Shown: positions 19,670 to 60,808 of the stretch, piece after piece
How the letters are laid out: the number at the start of each line of letters is the position of its first letter
Numbering within the stretch: position 1 is the first letter of the stretch
Assembly: GCA_025786725.1 (NCBI GenBank)
Contig: JAHLTZ010000004.1
Coordinates: 372,001 to 436,000, forward strand
Direction of reading: 5' to 3'
DNA: 64,000 nt
Source of the DNA: Syncephalis fuscata
Lineage: Eukaryota; Zoopagomycota; Zoopagomycetes; Zoopagales; Piptocephalidaceae
Program-made: the position numbers and the translations under genes
Notes under the pieces: generated by a model
Seen by the model: only the letters and a program-made list of their open reading frames with translations
Databases searched by the model: none
What the model was told of the DNA's origin: nothing

Positions 19670-21764
19670 TTAAATTATTTCTGTAAATGCATATAAGTAA
19701 TGAATAAACCAGTAATATACACTATTGCTTACCTCCTGTTAATATTGAATTATTAATGCATATAGTACATATCATGTAGTTAGTGCATAGTCAATTTATA
19801 TACAATATTACATACCAACTATTAATATTAAATCGTTGGCAGGCACAATACGTAATAAGAATTAGTGTATAGTGGATTTATATATAATACCACTTACGGC
19901 CTATTAGTATTAAATGGCCGGTACCAACAATGAATATTTAATTAGCACATAATTAGCCAAGATACCATACCACTTATATCCTATTGATATCCGGTTGTCG
20001 ATACACAGAATGTATAGCATGCAATTAGTGCATAGGCAATTATTATAAAATCTCACTTACGGCCTATTATATCAAGTTGTTAACAAACACATTAATAGCA
20101 TATGGTTAATGCATAGCTAATTAATATACTATGCCACTTACAGACTGTTAATATTAAGTCATTAATAGACACAATAAATAGCTTTAGGTTAGTGCATAAA
20201 CAAATAATATGGAACATCACTTACAGTCTATTAATATTAAGTTGTTGATACAAACAGTGAAAAAGTAATTAATGTATAATCATATAATATAAAATATTGC
20301 TTACAACCTATTGGTATCAAGCCATTAATGCACGCAGTAAATAGTAAGCAATTAGTTAGTAGTCAATGAAGATACAATAGCACTTACGAGCTATCAATAT
20401 TAGATTATAGATACACACAGTATATGGTATGTAATTAATGCATAGTCAATTTCTATATAATGCCACTTACGATCTATCAATGTAGGCCATTGACGAATTC
20501 AGCGTATAGTATGTAGTCAGCACATAACCAATTGCTATAGAATATCACTTACCGACTATTGATATTAGTAGTAGTATACGCGGCATATATAGTTTAATTA
20601 ATGTACAGTTAAATAACATACAGCTTTACTTACATTCTATTTGCATTAAGTTATTAATTCATATAGTATATAAAATGTAGTTAGTACATAACTCATCAGT
20701 ATGCAAAGTTGCTTACGACCTATTATATCAAATTATTAATATGCACAATAAATAGTATTTAACAGTATACAGCTAATTGGTATAAAATGTTACTTACAAG
20801 CTATTAATATTAGTTATTGATACGCGCAGCACATAGCATGTGATTAGTACTTAGCCAATTAATATACAATGTTACTCACATTCTGTTAATATCAAATCGT
20901 CAACATAAATATAATGAGCATGTAATTAGCAGATAGCCACTAGTATATAATATCACCTACTATCTATTAATATCAAGTTGTTGATGTAAACAGCACATAG
21001 AATGCGATCAGTATATATCCAATTAATATATAATGTCACTTACTGCCTATTAGCATTAAGTCATTGATACACACAATGTATAACATATTAGCAATGCATG
21101 GCTAGTTGTTATATAATGTTACTTACAGCCTGTTAGTATCAGATTGTCGATACACATAATAGATAGCATGCAATTAGCGTATGGCTAATTGATATATAGC
21201 GTCACTTACCAGCTATTAGTATTAAATTGTTGATACACACAGTATATGGCATGTAATTAGTGTATAGTTAATTAATATGCAATAGTACTTACATTCTATT
21301 GATTTTTGTTTGGCAAAAAAATATTTAGTTAAATTGTCAGCTGACATACAGTAAAGCTTACGTCCTAGTAATGTCCATTCAGCATATTAGCATGACAAAT
21401 ATAACATTTGATTCGCTAGCTTATAATAAACTTACTTTTAGCCAATAGTACTGATTTAGTCATGTACATTAAAAGTAATATTTAATTAGCAAATATATAG
21501 CTATTAATGTTTTAAACTACGGGCTGATACATGTGTTTTTACGTTTGTCATGTGTATGATGGTAGCATACAATAAGTATTGGAACAGTAATCCATCACCA
21601 TGACTTACCATCTAATAGTATCTTTGGTTAAACATAGCGTTATTGTATATTTATTATAATTTCGACATACCACGACGACCTAGAGCTGGCTTAGCATCCA
21701 CAGAGGTTGTAGTAATTGCAAGGGCCATGGCAAGGGCGCAAACGACGGCAATAGAAAGCTTCAT
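19670..21764 (-). CDS. Secreted four-cysteine peptide precursor encoded mostly by 3-nt exons
   Basis: Exon 1 (21764-21671) codes for a signal peptide (MKLSIAVVCALAMALAITTT) plus a short pro-region and ends in phase 1. Then come 22 exons of exactly 3 nt, a 15-nt exon (21450-21436) and a last 11-nt exon (19680-19670). The 3-nt exons end-coordinates are 21611-21609, 21364-21362, 21295-21293, 21212-21210, 21129-21127, 21046-21044, 20963-20961, 20882-20880, 20800-20798, 20719-20717, 20636-20634, 20555-20553, 20473-20471, 20390-20388, 20307-20305, 20227-20225, 20144-20142, 20063-20061, 19980-19978, 19900-19898, 19818-19816 and 19735-19733. Joined length is 186 nt: 61 residues plus stop, without a break. 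A Lys-Arg site ends at residue 38. The 23-residue mature part starts with Gln and has cysteines at its positions 4, 8, 16 and 18 (C-x3-C-x7-C-x-C). All introns are AG-terminated; 23 of 24 start with GT. No family recognised. The model is from sequence alone. Confidence 0.75.
19733..21295 (-). repeat. Tandem array of homologous introns, period 80-83 bp
   Basis: About 19 units, each reading on the minus strand as GTAAGT, a conserved AT-rich body (with TGCACTAATTACATG-like and GTGTATCAACAAC-like blocks), then TTGATATTAATAG, then three variable bases. Spacing between successive triplets is 83, 83, 83, 81, 82, 81, 83, 81, 82, 83, 83, 80, 83, 81, 83, 80, 82 and 83 bp. The bodies are recognisably related but diverged, so this is not a young minisatellite. 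The splice-site-like ends are the best conserved part and the three bases between them the least. Confidence 0.9.
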
Positions 21765-24073: not shown

Positions 24074-25083
24074 ATGGGCGATACGTGGAAAGTAAATGCA
24101 ACCAATCTATTTGGTATTCTGTTGCATCCGGATGGTGAAATGGATTTTCTTGGTTTTGTCAATAGAAAACAACAGAATTACGAGACAGCTAAAGATGAAG
24201 TTCAAAAGCGGCTGACAGTGGTTCAATTTCAAATGATGCTTAGTGTTGTACTGGGAACTCTATTTGCCTACAACTTAAGACGTTTATTACAGCATATTAC
24301 AGTTCAATCGTACAGCCTTCTCGACTTGTGCTATTTCATTCCATCTTTTTTGGGAATTGGATATACTATGTTAGCTATAGTGGCAGCACTAACCAACCAT
24401 CTAAATTGTAGAATAATTGTTTGGTATATTATGATAGCCATAAGCTTTTCAATGTTTTGCAACAGTATTGTTATACTATACAAAACCTATATTGTGCTGC
24501 TGTCGCAACGCCGAGTAGCCATTTGTGGCACCGTTTGTATTTTACCACAACTTTTCTTCAGTCTTGTTGCATGCAAACACTCTTATATTACATTGGAAAA
24601 ACAAGGCGGCTGTGTTTTTAACTACAATACCACTGTTGCGCTGTACTGGTTCACTATGATGATACCTAGCAACATACTTTTTTCAGGCATATTCAGCGCT
24701 GTAGTCTATAAACATTATAAGAAATACGGCTCCGATGCATAGAGAAGATTAGCCCGTAATGGTATTCAAATAATGTGTTTGGTAGTTCTCTGTAATATAG
24801 TATGCAGCATTGCTATTTTTTTAAAAATAGGAGAATCATTTGCAAGTAATTTTTATGTTTTTGACTGGTAAGTAGTTCATATAATTTAAAATGTATCTAA
24901 CGTTTATATAGGTATATTACAGCAACAATACTTGTGAGCGACGTTACGAAAAAGCGTACAAACAGCATACCCAACACTTCAAGAAGGAGTAGGCTGAATA
25001 ATATTTACAGTACTGACGTTGATATAAACCAGACCAGAACGGGATATTCTAGTCGGTTTGCAATTATCAGTAACTATATATAA
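24074..25083 (+). pseudogene. Seven-helix receptor-like gene, copy 1, interrupted by a TAG codon
   Basis: Exon 1 24074-24867, exon 2 24912-25083. Hydrophobic segments in order: FQMMLSVVLGTLFAYNL, YFIPSFLGIGYTMLAIVAAL, IIVWYIMIAISFSMFCNSIVIL, VAICGTVCILPQLFFSLVAC, VALYWFTMMIPSNILFSGIF, a sixth IMCLVVLCNIVCSIAIF, and a weak seventh spanning the splice. The codon that is TGG (Trp) in copies 2 and 3 is TAG at 24740-24742, just before helix 6; the frame is open on both sides and the splice junction is preserved. A single substitution therefore truncates it to 222 residues lacking the last two helices. The downstream frame looks little decayed, so loss is recent, or stop readthrough or a five-helix product remains possible. 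Confidence 0.7.
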
Positions 25084-25902
25084 TTTTTAACACTAATACA
25101 AACTATGGCTGTTATTGAGTTTATATCATTTGCTTTAATATTAATAAACAATTTTAACTTGGCAAATTCAACAATAGTAGCATTTGATCTACAAATGGTC
25201 AACAGTACAAATTAAAAGGCTTAATGGTTATTCGGTGCAATAATATAGTTTTAATTACTATAGGTTGCAGTATATTTAAAATAATAGATGATACAATTTA
25301 AATAATAAATGGTTTAGTTTTATTAACAATATATTACTAATGCTACTGAATTATTTATTGTCTTGAATGCTATTTATTTATAACACAGCAGGTACACAGG
25401 CTTACGTCAATGATTTTACAGTAAAAATAAGAATAAACTGTAGAATTGTCATGTAATCACTATGATTTCTGGCGTGTACATGCTTATCATAAACTGACAC
25501 AGAGTGTCATTTGTAACATAGGTATAAACTATTAATGCTAGGCATTCTGGATATAAATAAATTACGCCACATAGTGAGATAATCATATTGGCGCCATAAA
25601 CACATATCTGCAAAGTTAAATTTCAAATTTGACTGGCTAATGGCAGCCGCAATTGTATAATTTTAAAGTTTTAATAGCATGCAATTTAGTTTATTATTTA
25701 TAGTGCACCGAAAGTGGCTTTTTTACAGCATGGCAAGATTCGCTATTTATGGTAATAAGACCGGTTATTTTACGACATGCATTTTACTCGCCTTGGTCCA
25801 ACTTGGAGTCTTTTGCTCAGACTATGCACTGCTTTAATTCTTTAAATACCCACTTTTTAGTTACTTTTTAATTTCGTCTATATTTGTGAATAGTGTTGAA
25901 AT
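25084..25902. other. Spacer between receptor-like copies 1 and 2
   Basis: The first about 370 bp (to about 25460) are nearly identical to the sequence after copy 3 (28756 to about 29125), which shows a segmental duplication. The last about 100 bp are the copy 2 promoter, nearly identical to that of copy 3. No gene seen. Confidence 0.7.
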
Positions 25903-26912
25903 ATGACTAAGGAATGGGAAAAAGACGCTGAAAGACTGCTTGGTATTCCATTGCATCCACTTGGTGAAATAGATTTCTTTAGTTTTGTCAATATAAGAAC
26001 ACATAGCGATGCAACACCTAAAGCCGAAGCTCAGCATCGACTGATAGGAATTCAAATTCAACTGACATTTAGCATCGTGTTTGGAATTCTATCTGTTTAC
26101 AATCTAAGACGTTTAATCCAACAAATCGTAACTCACTCGTACGGTTTTCTCGATTTGTTTTATTTCATTCCGTCTTCTTTAGGCCTTGTATATGCTATGA
26201 TAGTTATGATCGCATCACTAACCAGTCATATGAATTGTAGGATAATTGTTTGGTATGCTATGACAGCCATTAGCATTTCGATGTTTTGCAACAGTATTAT
26301 TATACTTTACAAAACCTATCTCGTGCTATTGTCGCAACGCTGGGTAGCTATTTGCGGCACTATTTGCATTCTACCACAGCTCTTCTTTAGTCTTATTGCA
26401 TGTAAATATTCGCGTATTACATTGGAAGAATACTATGGTTGTTTTTATAACTATGACGATCTTGTCTCACTCTGTTGGTTTGGTATAATGATTCCCAGCA
26501 ACATACTTTTTTCGGGCATATTCAGCGTCGTGACATATAAACACTATAAAAGATACGGTTCTGACGCATGGAAAAGATTAGCTCGTGACAATATTCAGAT
26601 AATGTCTCTGGTGGTTCTTTGTAACATAATATGCTGTATTATTGCTATTTCTAAAATAGGGAATCATTTTTCAGGAAAGTTTTATGTTGTTGATTGGTAA
26701 GTATTCAATATAGTTCAAAATGTACCTAACATTTATCTAGGTATATTACATCAACGATACTTGTAAAATATGTTACGAAAAGACGTGCAACCAATATATA
26801 TAGCAATTCGGCAAAAAATGGACCAAATGATATTTACAGCATGGACGTTGATGTTAATAATACCAAAACGAACTATTCTAGCCGATTTGCAATTACTACC
26901 AATTATATATAA
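25903..26912 (+). CDS. Seven-helix receptor-like membrane protein, copy 2
   Basis: Two exons, 25903-26696 and 26741-26912, giving about 321 residues. An N-terminal about 50 residues (MTKEWEKDAERLLGIPLHPLGEIDF) precedes helices at roughly 53-75, 85-110, 118-150, 155-175, 190-220 and 235-258, with a seventh across the exon junction (YVVDWYITSTILVKYVTKR). The C-tail is Ser/Asn-rich. Conserved Cys pairs flank helix 4 and the following loop (ACKYSRITLEEYYGC), as in class-A-like receptor disulfides. No canonical DRY or NPxxY motif is visible, so I cannot assign a GPCR class; an orphan fungal 7TM family is the best description. Exon 2 is almost identical to that of copy 3, whereas helices 1-3 differ clearly. 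Confidence 0.7.
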
Positions 26913-27745
26913 TTTTTAACACTAATACAAACTATGGCTGTTATTGGGTTTATATCATTTGCCTTAATATCAATAAACAACCTTAATTCAGCAAATTTAT
27001 TTAAAATAGTGTTGGTAGTTTTAGGAATTAGTGAAATGCAACGAAACTTACGCAAAACTGATGTGTAGTACTAAGCGACTAGTTATTGAGTATGTAAGCC
27101 ATTTACTTGATAATAATAGTATATAAAGTGGTAGCACCTGATTTGAAAATGGCCAACAAAAAGTAAGTAAACTGCTCATAATTCAGTGTGGCAATATAGT
27201 TTTATTTAATGTAAATTGTAATATACTTTAAGATAATAGATAATGCAATTTAAATAGTGAAAGGTTTTAGTTTTGCTAGTGTTAGATTATTGATACTATT
27301 AAATTATCTTTTGCTTTAGATTCCGCTCATTCGTAACACGATAGATACACAGACCGATATAAATGATGTTACAATAAAATAAAAATAAACTGTAGAATTG
27401 TAAAGCGCTTTTTATAACTTTCAATGTGCGCATGCTTATCATAGACTGTCACAGGTTGTCATTTTTAACATAAGCTATAATTATTGCTACTAGGCAGTTT
27501 TGGATATTCTTAAGTTTTAGCAATATGCAATTTAGTTTATTATTATGTCGTAATAGAAGCGGCTTTTTACAGCATCACACGACTTGCTATTTATAGCAAT
27601 AAGACCGGTTATTTTACGCCATGCATTTACTCGCCTTGGTCCAACTTGGAGTCTTTTGCTCAGACTATGCACTGCTTTAATTCTTTAAATACCCACTTTT
27701 TAGTTACTTTTTAATTTCGTCTATATTTGTGAATAGTGTTGAAAT
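26913..27745. other. Spacer between receptor-like copies 2 and 3
   Basis: Homologous to, but more diverged from, the spacer after copies 1 and 3. It ends in about 110 bp nearly identical to the region just upstream of copy 2 (promoter and start codon). No gene seen. Confidence 0.65.
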
Positions 27746-28755
27746 ATGACTAAGGAATGGGAAAAAGACGCTGAAAGACTGCTTGGTATTCCATTGCATC
27801 CACTTGGTGAAATGGACTTTTTTAGTTTTGTCAACATAAGAACACATAGCGATGCAACACCTAAAGCCGAAGCTCAGCATCGATTGATAGGGCTTCAGCT
27901 TCAACTGACATTTGGCATTATATTTGGAATTTTATCTAGCTACAATATAAGCCGTTTGGTTCAACGTATTATAGCTCACTCATACAACTTTATCGATTTT
28001 TTTTATTTTATTCCATCTTCTTTAGGCGTTGGATACGCTATAACAGTCATATTGGCAACACTAACCGAACATCTAAATTGTAGGACAATTATTTGGTATG
28101 CTATAATGGCTGTAAGTATCTCGATGTTTTGCAACAGTACTATTATACTTTACAAAACCTATCTCGTGCTATTGTCGCAACGCTGGGTAGCTATTTGCGG
28201 CACTATTTGCATTCTACCACAGCTCTTCTTTAGTCTTATTGCATGCAAATACTCGTACATTACAGTAGAAGAATATTACGGCTGTGATTTTAAGTATGAT
28301 ATCATTGTTTCATTATGCTGGTTTGGCGTAATGATTCCCAGCAACATACTTTTTTCGGGCATATTCAGCGTCGTGACCTATAAACGTTATAAAAGATACG
28401 GTTATGACGCATGGAAACAATTAAACCGCGATAGTATTCAGATAATGGCTTTGGTGGTCCTCTGTAACATAATATGCTGTATTATTATTGTTTTTAGAAT
28501 AGGGGGTCATTCTTCAGGAAAAGTCTATATTGTTGATTGGTAAGTATTCAATATAGTTCAAAATGTACCTAACATTTATCTAGGTATACTACATCAACGA
28601 TACTTGTAAAATATGTTACGAAAAGACGTGCAACCAATATATATAGCAATTCGGCAAAAAATGGACCAAATGATATTTACAGCATGGACGTTGATGTTAA
28701 TAATACCAAAACAAACTATTCTAGCCGATTTGCAATTACTACCAATTATATATAA
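27746..28755 (+). CDS. Seven-helix receptor-like membrane protein, copy 3
   Basis: Two exons, 27746-28539 and 28584-28755, the same architecture and length as copy 2. The first about 50 codons and the last exon are nearly identical to copy 2. The segment with helices 1-3 (for example LQLTFGIIFGILSSYNISRLV and YAITVILATLTEHLNC) and the loop before helix 5 (YYGCDFKYDIIV) are replaced by clearly different residues. Such a mosaic suggests conversion of the ends with diversification of the helical bundle and loops, as seen in ligand-recognition families. Intact. Function unknown; plasma-membrane sensing is inference from topology. Confidence 0.7.
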
Positions 28756-49039: not shown

Positions 49040-50161
49040 ATGTCCTCTGTAAGTTATCAAGGTTCATTATGGCAAGCAAGACTCATTCAATGATGTTATG
49101 CAAGCTACATGGATCATATCAAGTTATATGTCGCTGAAACTAACTTTTATTACCATAATTACTATTAATAGGACCGTGAATCCCATGTCTATATGGCCAA
49201 GTTGGCCGAGCAGGCTGAGCGCTATGACGGTAAGTTATAAACAAACACTACTTTATGTAAAACAATGAAACTAATAATCTTTTGTTTCATAGAGATGGTC
49301 GATAACATGAAAGAAGTCGCCAAGCTCAGAGAAGACCTCAACGTTGAAGAGCGTAACTTGCTATCCGTTGCCTACAAGAACGTCATTGGTGCCCGTCGTG
49401 CCAGCTGGCGCATCATTTCCTCCATCGAACAGAAGGAGGAGGCCAAGGGCAATGCCAGCCATGTCGAAAGAATCAAGGAATACCGTGCCAAGGTTGAGAA
49501 GGAACTGTCCGAAGTCTGCCACGACATTCTCAACGTATTGGACGAATACCTTATCATTAAAAAGGATGATGCTGAATCATCAAGCCAAGACGAATCCCAA
49601 GTGTTCTTCTACAAGATGTACGTATACCAACCACAGTAATATTCATAGAAACATTTTGTGCTAACCGCCCATGACTTTGTTTATCGCCTATAGGAAGGGT
49701 GACTATCACCGTTATTTGGCCGAATTCACATCGGGAGATGACCGCAAGAGTGCATCTGAAGCTGCTGAGCAGGCCTACAAGGAAGCCACGTCCATTGCCC
49801 AGACCAACCTGGCACCAACCCACCCAATCCGTCTTGGTCTCGCATTGAACAACTCGGTGTTCTATTATGAGATTCTTAACTCACCACAAAAGGCTTGCGA
49901 GTTTGCCAAGCAAGCATTTGACGATGCTATTGCCGAATTGGACACGCTATCCGAGGAATCGTACAAGGACAGCACACTGATTATGCAGCTATTGCGTGAC
50001 AATCTAACTCTCTGGACATCGGACATGCAAGACAGTACGTATAACTAGGATGAAGGTGCATTGTATAATGTATTTACTAATCGTTTTTCTACTTTTTTAC
50101 CATAGATGACACACCTGCTGATGCTAAGGACACAGAGGAAGCCGACAAGGATGATGCTTAA
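49040..50161 (+). CDS. BMH1: 14-3-3 protein
   Basis: Phosphoserine/phosphothreonine-binding dimeric adaptor. Exons: 49040-49048 (9 nt, Met-Ser-Ser), 49172-49229, 49293-49617, 49694-50034 and 50106-50161. The protein reads [22 protein letters not shown], then [35 protein letters not shown], the binding-groove helices with [16 protein letters not shown], and the signature [19 protein letters not shown]. The C-terminal acidic tail ends in EEADKDDA. Arg pairs of the phosphate pocket are present (GARRASWR and YHRY). Codon use is GC-richer at third positions than most neighbours, as expected for high expression. The first exon carries only three codons. Confidence 0.97.
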
Positions 50162-59378: not shown

Positions 59379-60070
59379 ATGAAGTCCTATATCTATTTCG
59401 CTGTCCTTGCTGCTGCCGCTGCTATTGCATTAATCAATGTCGACGCTGCCCCTCAAACTTACACAGCCGACTCCACTTCATATAGCGTTGGTCCTGTCGA
59501 CACCAGCTACAGCACCGGATCAACTACTCCTGGATCATCTGGCGGCTCAAAGACTCCATCAACGCCAACCGGCTCTACTGGAAGTGGCAATGGCGGCAAC
59601 GGTGGCAACGGTGGTAATGGCGGCAATGGCGGTAACAGCAGCAGTGGCGGCAACGGTGGTAATGGCGGCAACGGCGGTAACGGCGGTAACAGCAGCAGTG
59701 GTGGCAATGGTGGTAACGGTGGTAACGGCGGCAATGGTGGTAACAGCAGCAGTGGAAGCAATGGTGGTAACGGCGGCAATAGCGGCTACGGCAGCAGCGG
59801 CAGTGTCGGTCAGGTGGCAGTGGCGGCAATGGTGGCAGCGGCGGTAATGGTGGCAATGGCCAAAACGGCAGCAATGGACAAAACGGTAGCAACGGCCAAA
59901 ACGGCAGCAACGGCTTATATGTCTCCCCACCTCGCGGTTCAAGTGGTGGTAAGCCTCGTCCAGTTGGAGGCTATTATGGCAGTGGCTCTAAAAGCAAGTC
60001 CTACGGCAAGGGTAGTGGTAGCACCACCACTGGTTCCACTGATACCAGCACTGACACTAGCTCCGACTAA
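59379..60070 (+). CDS. Gly/Asn-rich secreted cell-wall-type protein
   Basis: Signal peptide MKSYIYFAVLAAAAAIALIN followed by VDAAPQTYTADSTSYS. The body consists of GGN triplet repeats broken by NSSSG blocks (59580-59810), then QNGSNG repeats (about 59855-59910), a basic KSKSYGKGSGS stretch and a Ser/Thr/Asp tail ending at 60070. The frame changes by one base at about 59811-59814 (CAGGTGG; a third G would restore it). Before the break it reads SGYGSSGSVGQ, after it GGSGGNGGSGGN, so both sides are clearly one repeat protein. Structural wall or extracellular-matrix protein by composition. Paralogous in promoter and plan to the gene at 63331. Confidence 0.75.
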
Positions 60071-60808
60071 TGGTATACCATCGCTAAACACTGAATTTGC
60101 AATCTAGTGTTTAATACAAAATAACTTCGTCTAAATAAAACATTGAAACATCATTTGTTTGTAGTATGTTGTAATCTACTATCACAGCACCAGTATTTTA
60201 TTATTCAACAATGAGTGCAGCTTACTTTTGATCATTATATTTTGTTGTATAAAATCTATTGTATAAGTTATTAGAATTGACTACTTTTCCAGCTTAAACT
60301 ATCAGCACAAATCCAAATAATCGACAATAATAAAACAATTTAATACTATTCATACATTTAAATTAAATATCTTTTATTGAACATGATGATGGATGGTGAG
60401 TAACATCAAAGTTTAAAATACTCATCATCATAGATTGATTATCCAGTATGCATATATCTCTATTCATCCATATTATTCATCATTGTATACTCATACTATT
60501 ATATGCTATTCTATTAATAAAAAGTATTTGTCTATCATTAGTGCGTTTATTATGAGTTCAATTCATTGTGCTTAGTCATACATATAATAGTTTTAGCACT
60601 ATTATTCATACAGTTTATTTTATTCGCTTATATTCAACTATGTGTAAGCTAGTAAAACAGTTGTTTCTATTTATACATCTAACAGAAGTAAATGGATACA
60701 ATCACAATGCGGTGTAACAACTGATGAGACTCACTCAACAATAAGTACTGTCTACTCTTTCTATTCTTTGCTACTAAACTGATACTAGTTTAATTGCTCT
60801 CTTTAATA
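60071..60808. other. Intergenic spacer with a dispersed-repeat copy
   Basis: AT-rich. Holds the copy at 60340-60465 and the NAS2 promoter. No ORF of note. Confidence 0.6.
60340..60465 (+). repeat. Dispersed AT-rich element, copy B
   Basis: Shares TTGAACATGATGATGGATGG and ATCCAGTATGCATATA with 50561-50685, and CATACATTTAAATT with 55800-55814. Confidence 0.65.

Follow-up and report, generated by a model that had tools for sequence, protein, structure and literature searches.

A putative secreted, cysteine-rich peptide gene of Syncephalis fuscata and its family of three-nucleotide exon arrays

Introduction

Can a peptide be assembled from exons of only three nucleotides (nt)? The question is raised by a locus on the minus strand of a 64,000-nt stretch of the Syncephalis fuscata genome (contig JAHLTZ010000004.1, positions 372,001 to 436,000; hereafter, the window). 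The first-pass annotation, made from the letters of the window alone, had read window positions 19670-21764 as a secreted peptide gene in which a signal-peptide exon is followed by a long run of 3-nt exons. S. fuscata belongs to the Zoopagales (Zoopagomycota). Syncephalis species are obligate parasites of other fungi, and small cysteine-rich secreted peptides are a general class in fungi.

Micro-exon genes (MEGs) of schistosomes encode secreted proteins in strings of tiny exons whose lengths are mostly multiples of three; the sections of the source cited here give exons of 6-81 bp (3-81 in its abstract), mostly 15 bp, at 10-20 per gene, and introns of 0.1-5 kb (PMC10526429). The bicycle genes of aphids, as presented in part of PMC9168663, encode divergent putative effectors; they average about 17 exons, and of the small internal ones, which are numerous, almost all start at codon position 2. 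Single ultra-small exons are described, in the excerpts cited, for Arabidopsis APC11 (1 nt; PMC4674806), Fusarium CYP621A (1 nt, a case that leans partly on an intronless relative; PMC12940212), and Drosophila homothorax (3 bp; PMC7392893). Among the open-licence papers listed by the literature searches, none reported an array of 3-nt or one-codon exons.

In this study, the window locus is interpreted, with a probability of about 0.9, as a member of a large S. fuscata family of secreted, cysteine-rich peptide genes whose triplets are spliced in order. The architecture, the family, a constraint on the joined reading frame, and intron-free twins of the arrays are read from the genome sequence itself.

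Materials and methods

The genome searched comprised 28.95 Mb in 299 contigs, with the window on contig C234. A search with the array DNA gave 124 matches, which were grouped by hand into 40 places; 40 of the 268 candidates were scored, and the number of places is thus a lower bound. The 39 arrays retrieved besides that of the window brought the total to 40 loci, all of which were modelled with chained gene models. An initial position-weight search had returned 852 units, 844 of them 3 nt long; its self-training was over-strict and missed units, and the chained models were used instead. Intron-free copies were found by a search with the GenBank protein BDF19DRAFT_453325.

For the stop test, the triplets were shuffled 2,000 times within each locus. 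Only 3- and 6-nt exons were used, 7-nt calls were counted as 3 nt, and runs were broken at gaps over 110 nt. Divergence was measured in 15 overlapping pairs of close paralogs at a local intron identity of at least 0.85; loci recur among the pairs, which are not independent.

Results

The spacing of splice signals seen at the window locus recurs throughout the genome. The exact pattern TAATAG-N3-GTAAGT occurred 2,716 times, with N4 14 times and with N6 15 times; the backwards controls gave 5 (N3), 20 (N4), and 7 (N6). The 40 loci contained 764 of the exact N3 matches (19.1 per locus), so that the genome-wide count extrapolates to ~140 arrays and suggests a family of about that size. A further array of the same kind, L057, lay outside the 40. 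Within the window, [CT]AG-N3-GTAAG[TC] had 18 minus-strand matches, every one of them inside the array, and a single plus-strand match; each of the remaining spacings between N1 and N9 gave 0-5 matches per strand.

The 40 models held 1,168 micro-exons (13-42 per locus), of which 1,112 were 3 nt, 38 were 6 nt, and 4 were 9 nt long; five calls of 7 nt each consisted of 3 nt plus GTAA. Donors were GT in 1,143 cases (GTAAGT in 990), GC in 23, and AT in 2, and the acceptor was TAG in 1,133. Introns of 70-84 nt numbered 1,076. The first-pass annotation had described variable triplets in conserved splice flanks, and the family bears this out: across 1,010 strict units, information was lowest in the three columns of the exon (0.18, 0.14, and 0.04 bits) and amounted to 0.32-2 bits in all flanking columns up to 20 nt away, those of AG and GTAAG being fixed by the search pattern. 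These units used 59 of the 64 possible triplets, and their acceptors were preceded by a TTAATATTAATAG-like stretch.

The arrays lie between a recurrent first and last exon. At least 150 matches to exon 1 were found (150 of 345 candidates scored), all with E below 1e-7. In the family, exon 1 encodes a predicted signal peptide of the MKLSIAVV... type, ends in Arg-Arg and a G, and leaves phase 1; the window copy conforms (94 nt, phase 1, closing with the residues GRR and a single G). Its coding part was intact in 35 of the 40 array loci, and L036 runs off the contig end. L011, L014, L017, L018, L019, L031, L037, L040, and L041 had a better exon 1 donor, GTATGT, 3 nt downstream, which leaves the frame unchanged. 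The last exon was located in 35 of the 40 loci and has a counterpart in the intron-free copies. By hand count, 33 of these 35 last exons reach a TAA within six codons in the phase of exon 1, and that of the window does likewise and continues into a 3' UTR related to theirs.

Each triplet contributes to two codons, and each codon is thus made up from two adjacent exons. Ordered joining in the frame set by exon 1 gave 4 stops in 1,110 codons, compared with 69.2 (standard deviation (SD) 6.1) after shuffling, and none of the 2,000 shuffles was as low. Of the four stops, two belonged to the near-twins L032 and L042, a third fell close to the end of L037, and the fourth was in L046. The 29 loci hand-picked to leave out near-twins gave 2 stops in 850 codons vs. 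51.6 (SD 5.3) when shuffled. No depletion was seen in the other junction frame (94 stops vs. 89.8 shuffled); the frame in which each triplet is itself a codon had 12 stops in 1,193, a frame that shuffling cannot test. Cysteines in the exon-1 frame numbered 207 vs. 95.9 (SD 7.0) after shuffling. A mild increase (38 vs. 24.0) was seen in the other junction frame as well, and cysteine alone is therefore not strictly frame-specific.

Stop depletion disappeared when a unit was skipped. Joining unit i to i+2 gave 64 stops in 995 codons (64.2 expected), and i to i+4 gave 55 in 854 (54.6 expected). The lack of depletion on skipping one unit means that selection assumes every triplet to be included. 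Selection thus appears to favour complete, ordered inclusion over combinatorial skipping, and the triplets appear to be constitutive. Joining i to i+3 gave an excess of stops (77 in 924 vs. 59.0 expected, SD 5.7), perhaps as a side effect of the cysteine spacing.

Contiguous counterparts of the arrays occur in the same genome. By hand count among the 150 matches scored, at least 39 pass stop-free from exon 1 to query residue 46 or beyond. All nine intron-free paralogs retrieved run from exon 1 directly into a contiguous cysteine-rich frame and then into the same last exon; the likeness of their last exons and 3' untranslated regions (UTRs) to those of the arrays was judged by eye. Arg-Arg is kept in seven of the nine and is missing from L051 and L054. 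In L048, the seams fall exactly at the exon-1 and last-exon boundaries predicted for the arrays. L054, a contiguous peptide, aligned over nearly its full length with the joined L038 array (36 columns); the score was 112, against at most 54 in 300 shuffles, and the two have the same cysteine spacing and a segment NYPYPS in common. In the comparison of 39 joined arrays with the nine intron-free peptides (L036, having no exon 1, was left out), 16 beat all 300 shuffles.

The 113 nt upstream of L048 showed a median identity of 88% to the arrays vs. 62% for shuffled sequence; this argues for recombination of complementary DNA (cDNA) with a family locus or for common descent rather than for a retrocopy inserted elsewhere. 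In a tree of exon 1 plus the 3' end, the intron-free copies were scattered among the arrays, with supports from 0.3 to 0.97. Recombination between spliced cDNA and family loci is the most likely origin of the intron-free paralogs.

A public protein model touches on the same splicing. GenBank protein BDF19DRAFT_453770 (P0003) equals exon 1 plus CCA, AAG, and a read-through from ATC at L038 over 60 of 60 residues, and because of this residue-for-residue match, two 3-nt exons are implied by public annotation. Either transcripts or a predictor may have been the source of that model. Four public family models were compared with the loci, and two were placed, P0003 at L038 and P0004 at L037; P0004 departs from the L037 model after exon 1. 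The family looks mis-annotated in public records. P0016 has a related signal peptide, a 111-residue model with two further Lys-Arg sites, and no cysteine after the signal peptide; the leader may here precede another type of product.

Between close paralogs, the proportion of differing positions was 0.116 in triplets (121 of 1,041), 0.036 in intron interiors (716 of 20,093), and 0.005 in splice signals (17 of 3,666), a roughly threefold excess of triplets over intron interiors. In the 228 units whose flanks were at least 95% identical, the rates were 0.037 for triplets vs. 0.012 for intron interiors. Where flanks were at least 0.90 identical, triplets with two or three changes were commoner than independent hits would predict (22 vs. 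7.5). Some paralogs, namely L017/L019 and L009/L035, differed by whole units.

The mature peptides predicted from the 24 clean models, which run from exon 1 to a stop, have 17-47 residues and often two groups of closely spaced cysteines. Four models had 4 cysteines, three had 5, fourteen had 6, two had 7, and one had 8; the family usually has six, and the window peptide has four. None of the four intron-free members tried had a Pfam match, and two protein searches of limited sensitivity (8 and 11 matches) gave matches in S. fuscata only. The structure model of one intron-free copy was poor (mean predicted local distance difference test (pLDDT) score, 65.8), and this poor model gave no PDB match. 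A sequence profile compared with the PDB returned only two matches, both at chance level.

The predicted exons of the window locus are listed in Table 1. The arithmetic of the first-pass annotation holds: exon 1, 22 triplets, a 15-nt exon, and an 11-nt end give 186 nt, or 61 residues and a stop, at the positions first reported. The triplets, 19 of them different, have their first bases at 21611 to 19735. Donors are GT in 23 of 24 cases, the exception being the ATAAGT after GAT at 19980-19978, and all acceptors are TAG or CAG. The automatic model of this array recovered 21 of the 22 triplets and missed ATG and the 15-nt exon. The latter fits the open 61-residue frame and is the least certain part of the structure; none was called in the 40 locus models, weak evidence because the automatic window model misses its own. 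The first-pass annotation had also placed a dibasic Lys-Arg site in the peptide. A dibasic site does recur family-wide as the Arg-Arg that closes exon 1, whereas the Lys-Arg is weak, being formed via the 15-nt exon of the window copy. In the window array alone, 2.2% of shuffled triplet orders were stop-free and 11.5% had at least four cysteines. Taken singly, this array provides modest evidence only, and it is the family that carries the weight.

Table 1. Predicted exons and introns of the window locus (window positions)
Feature	Position	Strand	Remarks
Exon 1, 94 nt	21671..21764	-	start codon, predicted signal peptide, short propeptide to Arg-Arg, first base of next codon; donor GTATGT
3-nt exon ATG	21609..21611	-	acceptor TAG, donor GTAAGT
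15-nt exon TACTATTGGCTAAAA	21436..21450	-	least certain part; acceptor CAG, donor GTAAGT
3-nt exon GAC	21362..21364	-	
3-nt exon AAT	21293..21295	-	
3-nt exon CTG	21210..21212	-	
3-nt exon GCT	21127..21129	-	
3-nt exon GCA	21044..21046	-	
3-nt exon ATA	20961..20963	-	
3-nt exon AAT	20880..20882	-	
3-nt exon CTT	20798..20800	-	
3-nt exon GTC	20717..20719	-	
3-nt exon AAT	20634..20636	-	
3-nt exon TCG	20553..20555	-	
3-nt exon ATC	20471..20473	-	
3-nt exon CTC	20388..20390	-	
3-nt exon GTT	20305..20307	-	
3-nt exon ACT	20225..20227	-	
3-nt exon TCT	20142..20144	-	
3-nt exon GCC	20061..20063	-	
3-nt exon GAT	19978..19980	-	followed by non-GT donor ATAAGT; possibly skipped, frame unaffected
3-nt exon GCC	19898..19900	-	
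3-nt exon TTG	19816..19818	-	
3-nt exon GAG	19733..19735	-	
Last exon, coding part 11 nt	19670..19680	-	in-frame TAA; 3' UTR extends below
Introns between the exons	19681..21670	-	mostly ~80-nt tandem units, period ~83 bp; GTAAGT-type donors, (T/C)AG acceptors

A 9-nt exon in the 14-3-3 gene had been offered as a sign that this genome splices very short exons. The 9 nt are the coding part of that gene's first exon (ATGTCCTCT followed by GTAAGT, near 49040) and not an internal micro-exon, and the gene is therefore no proof of internal micro-exon splicing.

The 40 loci also contained 21 introns of 429-901 nt (L021, L022, L043, and others). Most of them share an insert of ~410 nt, as judged by mutual BLAST matches, which in L021 and L043 is flanked by repeats of about GTGATATTGTATATT. 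In these two, its end looks like transfer RNA (tRNA), and the insert is perhaps a short interspersed nuclear element (SINE); ARAGORN found no tRNA in five loci that carry it.

Elsewhere in the window, three similar open reading frames (ORFs) resembling membrane proteins adjoin at 24074-28543 on the plus strand. The ORF at 25903-26697 (plus strand) had five protein matches, the named ones all from Syncephalis, and no Pfam match. The ORF at 59379-60107 (plus strand) has a signal-peptide-like start and a long Gly/Asn-rich repeat and is overlapped by other open frames.

Discussion

The first-pass reading of a secreted, processed, cysteine-containing peptide gene with one-codon, phase-1 exons is supported because the signal-peptide exon, the stop depletion, the cysteine enrichment, the last exon, and the intron-free paralogs agree. 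In the proposed mechanism, exon 1 would encode a signal peptide and a propeptide ending in Arg-Arg, and the mature peptide would be encoded by 13-42 micro-exons, nearly all of 3 nt and phase 1; no codon lies whole within any of the 3-nt exons. The micro-exons are separated by tandemly repeated introns, mostly of 78-80 nt. The spliceosome would remove each intron as a separate unit (intron definition), a mode favoured by donors that are strong and uniform and by introns that are short. Removal is presumably sequential, since introns 3 nt apart can hardly be bound simultaneously. All triplets would be joined in order, and the last exon would supply the stop. In evolution, units of intron plus triplet would be gained and lost, the peptide would change one residue at a time, and triplets would change faster than the introns around them, while recombination between spliced cDNA and family loci would yield the intron-free paralogs. 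That the arrays are transcribed, spliced in this order, and processed, and that the products carry disulfides and serve a function, is what we infer from these sequence patterns.

Several observations weigh against this interpretation. Besides the 24 clean models, 16 of the 40 are unclean: eight stop early (L020, L022, L032, L042, L044, L045, L046, and L047), four overrun the expected stop (L015, L016, L037, and L041), three have no located last exon (L023, L024, and L035, the last reaching the contig end), and L036, at a contig end, has no exon 1. These reflect modelling faults in part and genuine damage in part. In L016, L045, L046, and L047, exon 1 is broken; L046 lacks the start codon, the other three have a disrupted exon 1, and their arrays persist, which makes all four probable recent relics. 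Nine of the 1,168 micro-exons were called at 1, 2, 4, or 5 nt, which are modelling faults. The scoring of the models slightly prefers 3 nt, and for this reason, the genome-wide exact count is the unbiased figure for spacing. In the comparison with intron-free peptides, 23 of the 39 arrays failed to beat all shuffles, and L022, L032, L042, and L044 scored below the shuffle mean. Triplets were not faster than introns in the three closest pairs, and the proportion of nonsynonymous differences (pN, 0.170) did not exceed that of synonymous ones (pS, 0.221; nine pairs, with L014/L022 left out). Plain diversifying selection on amino acids is thus unsupported by pN vs. pS, and because both are high, we rate unit exchange or local hypermutation on a par with simple diversifying selection. 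The window copy itself is strongly diverged, with one non-GT donor and the longest branch of the tree, and may be decaying. The freedom of its frame from stops is only moderately significant, and 52 of 300 shuffles scored as well as its peptide against the intron-free peptides. We read it as one member, putatively transcribed, of a multigene family whose triplets appear constitutive, neither of which is visible in the window alone.

The alternative that fares best concerns origin only. The intron-free genes may have been ancestral, with an intron unit that later entered and multiplied, taking one codon per copy. We consider this order of events unlikely. L048 and the arrays have upstream region and 3' end in common, as would be expected of either direction, whereas the presence of intron-free copies in several places of the tree fits repeated intron loss, and 20-40 independent insertions exactly one codon apart seem implausible.

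Two further alternatives accept the exons and have little in their favour. In the first, the triplets are alternatively spliced cassettes that give many peptide variants per gene by exon skipping, as in schistosome MEGs. Any subset could be joined, because all 3- and 6-nt exons keep the frame. Yet a truncated peptide would result from ~6% of single skips, which selection has left in place; nor do the i to i+2, i+3, and i+4 joins show stop depletion. Skipping as the general mode is therefore improbable, and rare exon skipping may occur. In the second, the 3-nt exons were formerly spliced, most of the arrays have since become relics, and peptide comes from the intron-free copies alone. The broken exon 1 in 4 of 40 loci, the 16 unclean models, the 23 GC and 2 AT donors, and the bad donor of the window copy would fit this account, which we also hold improbable. 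Splice signals differ far less than intron interiors (17 of 3,666 vs. 716 of 20,093 positions) and the joined frames are still open, which points to recent or current constraint.

Least credible of all is a neutral, decaying ~81-nt minisatellite within one long intron, with AG-NNN-GT as a by-product of the repeat unit: the regular period of the tandem units and the whole-unit differences between close paralogs would suit it, but variability that peaks at exactly three columns, stops depleted 17-fold for adjacent and not for non-adjacent triplets in the exon-1 frame, a doubled number of cysteines in the joined frame, splice signals that barely diverge, and the 16 of 39 joined peptides that match contiguous paralogs above all shuffles speak against it. 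The absence of joined-frame constraint that neutrality implies is contradicted by the stop, cysteine, and unit-skipping tests.

The family of arrays resembles fungal small cysteine-rich secreted peptides in its predicted signal peptide, dibasic site, 4-8 cysteines, and many paralogs; we know of no array-of-3-nt-exon architecture among them. The arrays share with schistosome MEGs the encoding of secreted products, predicted as such in the arrays, by strings of tiny exons. They differ from the MEGs, as far as the cited sections describe these, in having 3-nt exons, up to 42 per locus, ~80-nt tandem-repeat introns, and apparently constitutive inclusion; the MEG exon and intron sizes (6-81 bp and 0.1-5 kb) do not fit the arrays, and the comparison is one of architecture only. 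In the arrays as in bicycle genes, small internal exons are numerous and nearly all begin at codon position 2, again a likeness of architecture only, and the cited part of PMC9168663 does not describe one-codon exon arrays or tandem-repeat introns. APC11, CYP621A, and homothorax, from the excerpts cited, show that an exon as small as 1-3 nt can be retained by the spliceosome, in one case that of a fungus; these are one per gene, in contrast to 13-42 micro-exons in each of 40 S. fuscata loci.

The products are perhaps diversifying disulfide peptides for contact with the host or with rival fungi, and a role as pheromone or in self-recognition is possible. More tentatively, the repeated introns could be an evolvability device, by which the mature peptide becomes a codon-by-codon tandem repeat. 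Through unequal exchange, single residues would be added, removed, or reordered with the frame kept and the flanking codons unharmed, and recombination with spliced cDNA would fix a peptide that works well in intron-free form. A single genome would hold thousands of constitutive 3-nt exons, and the family would alternate between an "atomised" state that changes fast and a frozen one. This idea we regard as somewhat doubtful, though worth keeping in mind.

If the interpretation of the arrays as ordered, spliced genes is true, they represent a kind of gene in which whole codons are absent from the 3-nt exons. They would provide a natural stress test of splice-site pairing, with 13-42 exons of 3 nt resolved per transcript, and the 2,716 exact-pattern candidates in one genome could serve studies of intron definition and splicing order. 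The working limits of gene finders and RNA-sequencing mappers would be overturned. For S. fuscata, a large set of secreted peptides would be missing or mis-modelled in public annotation, and the family would suggest a new way for introns to speed protein diversification.

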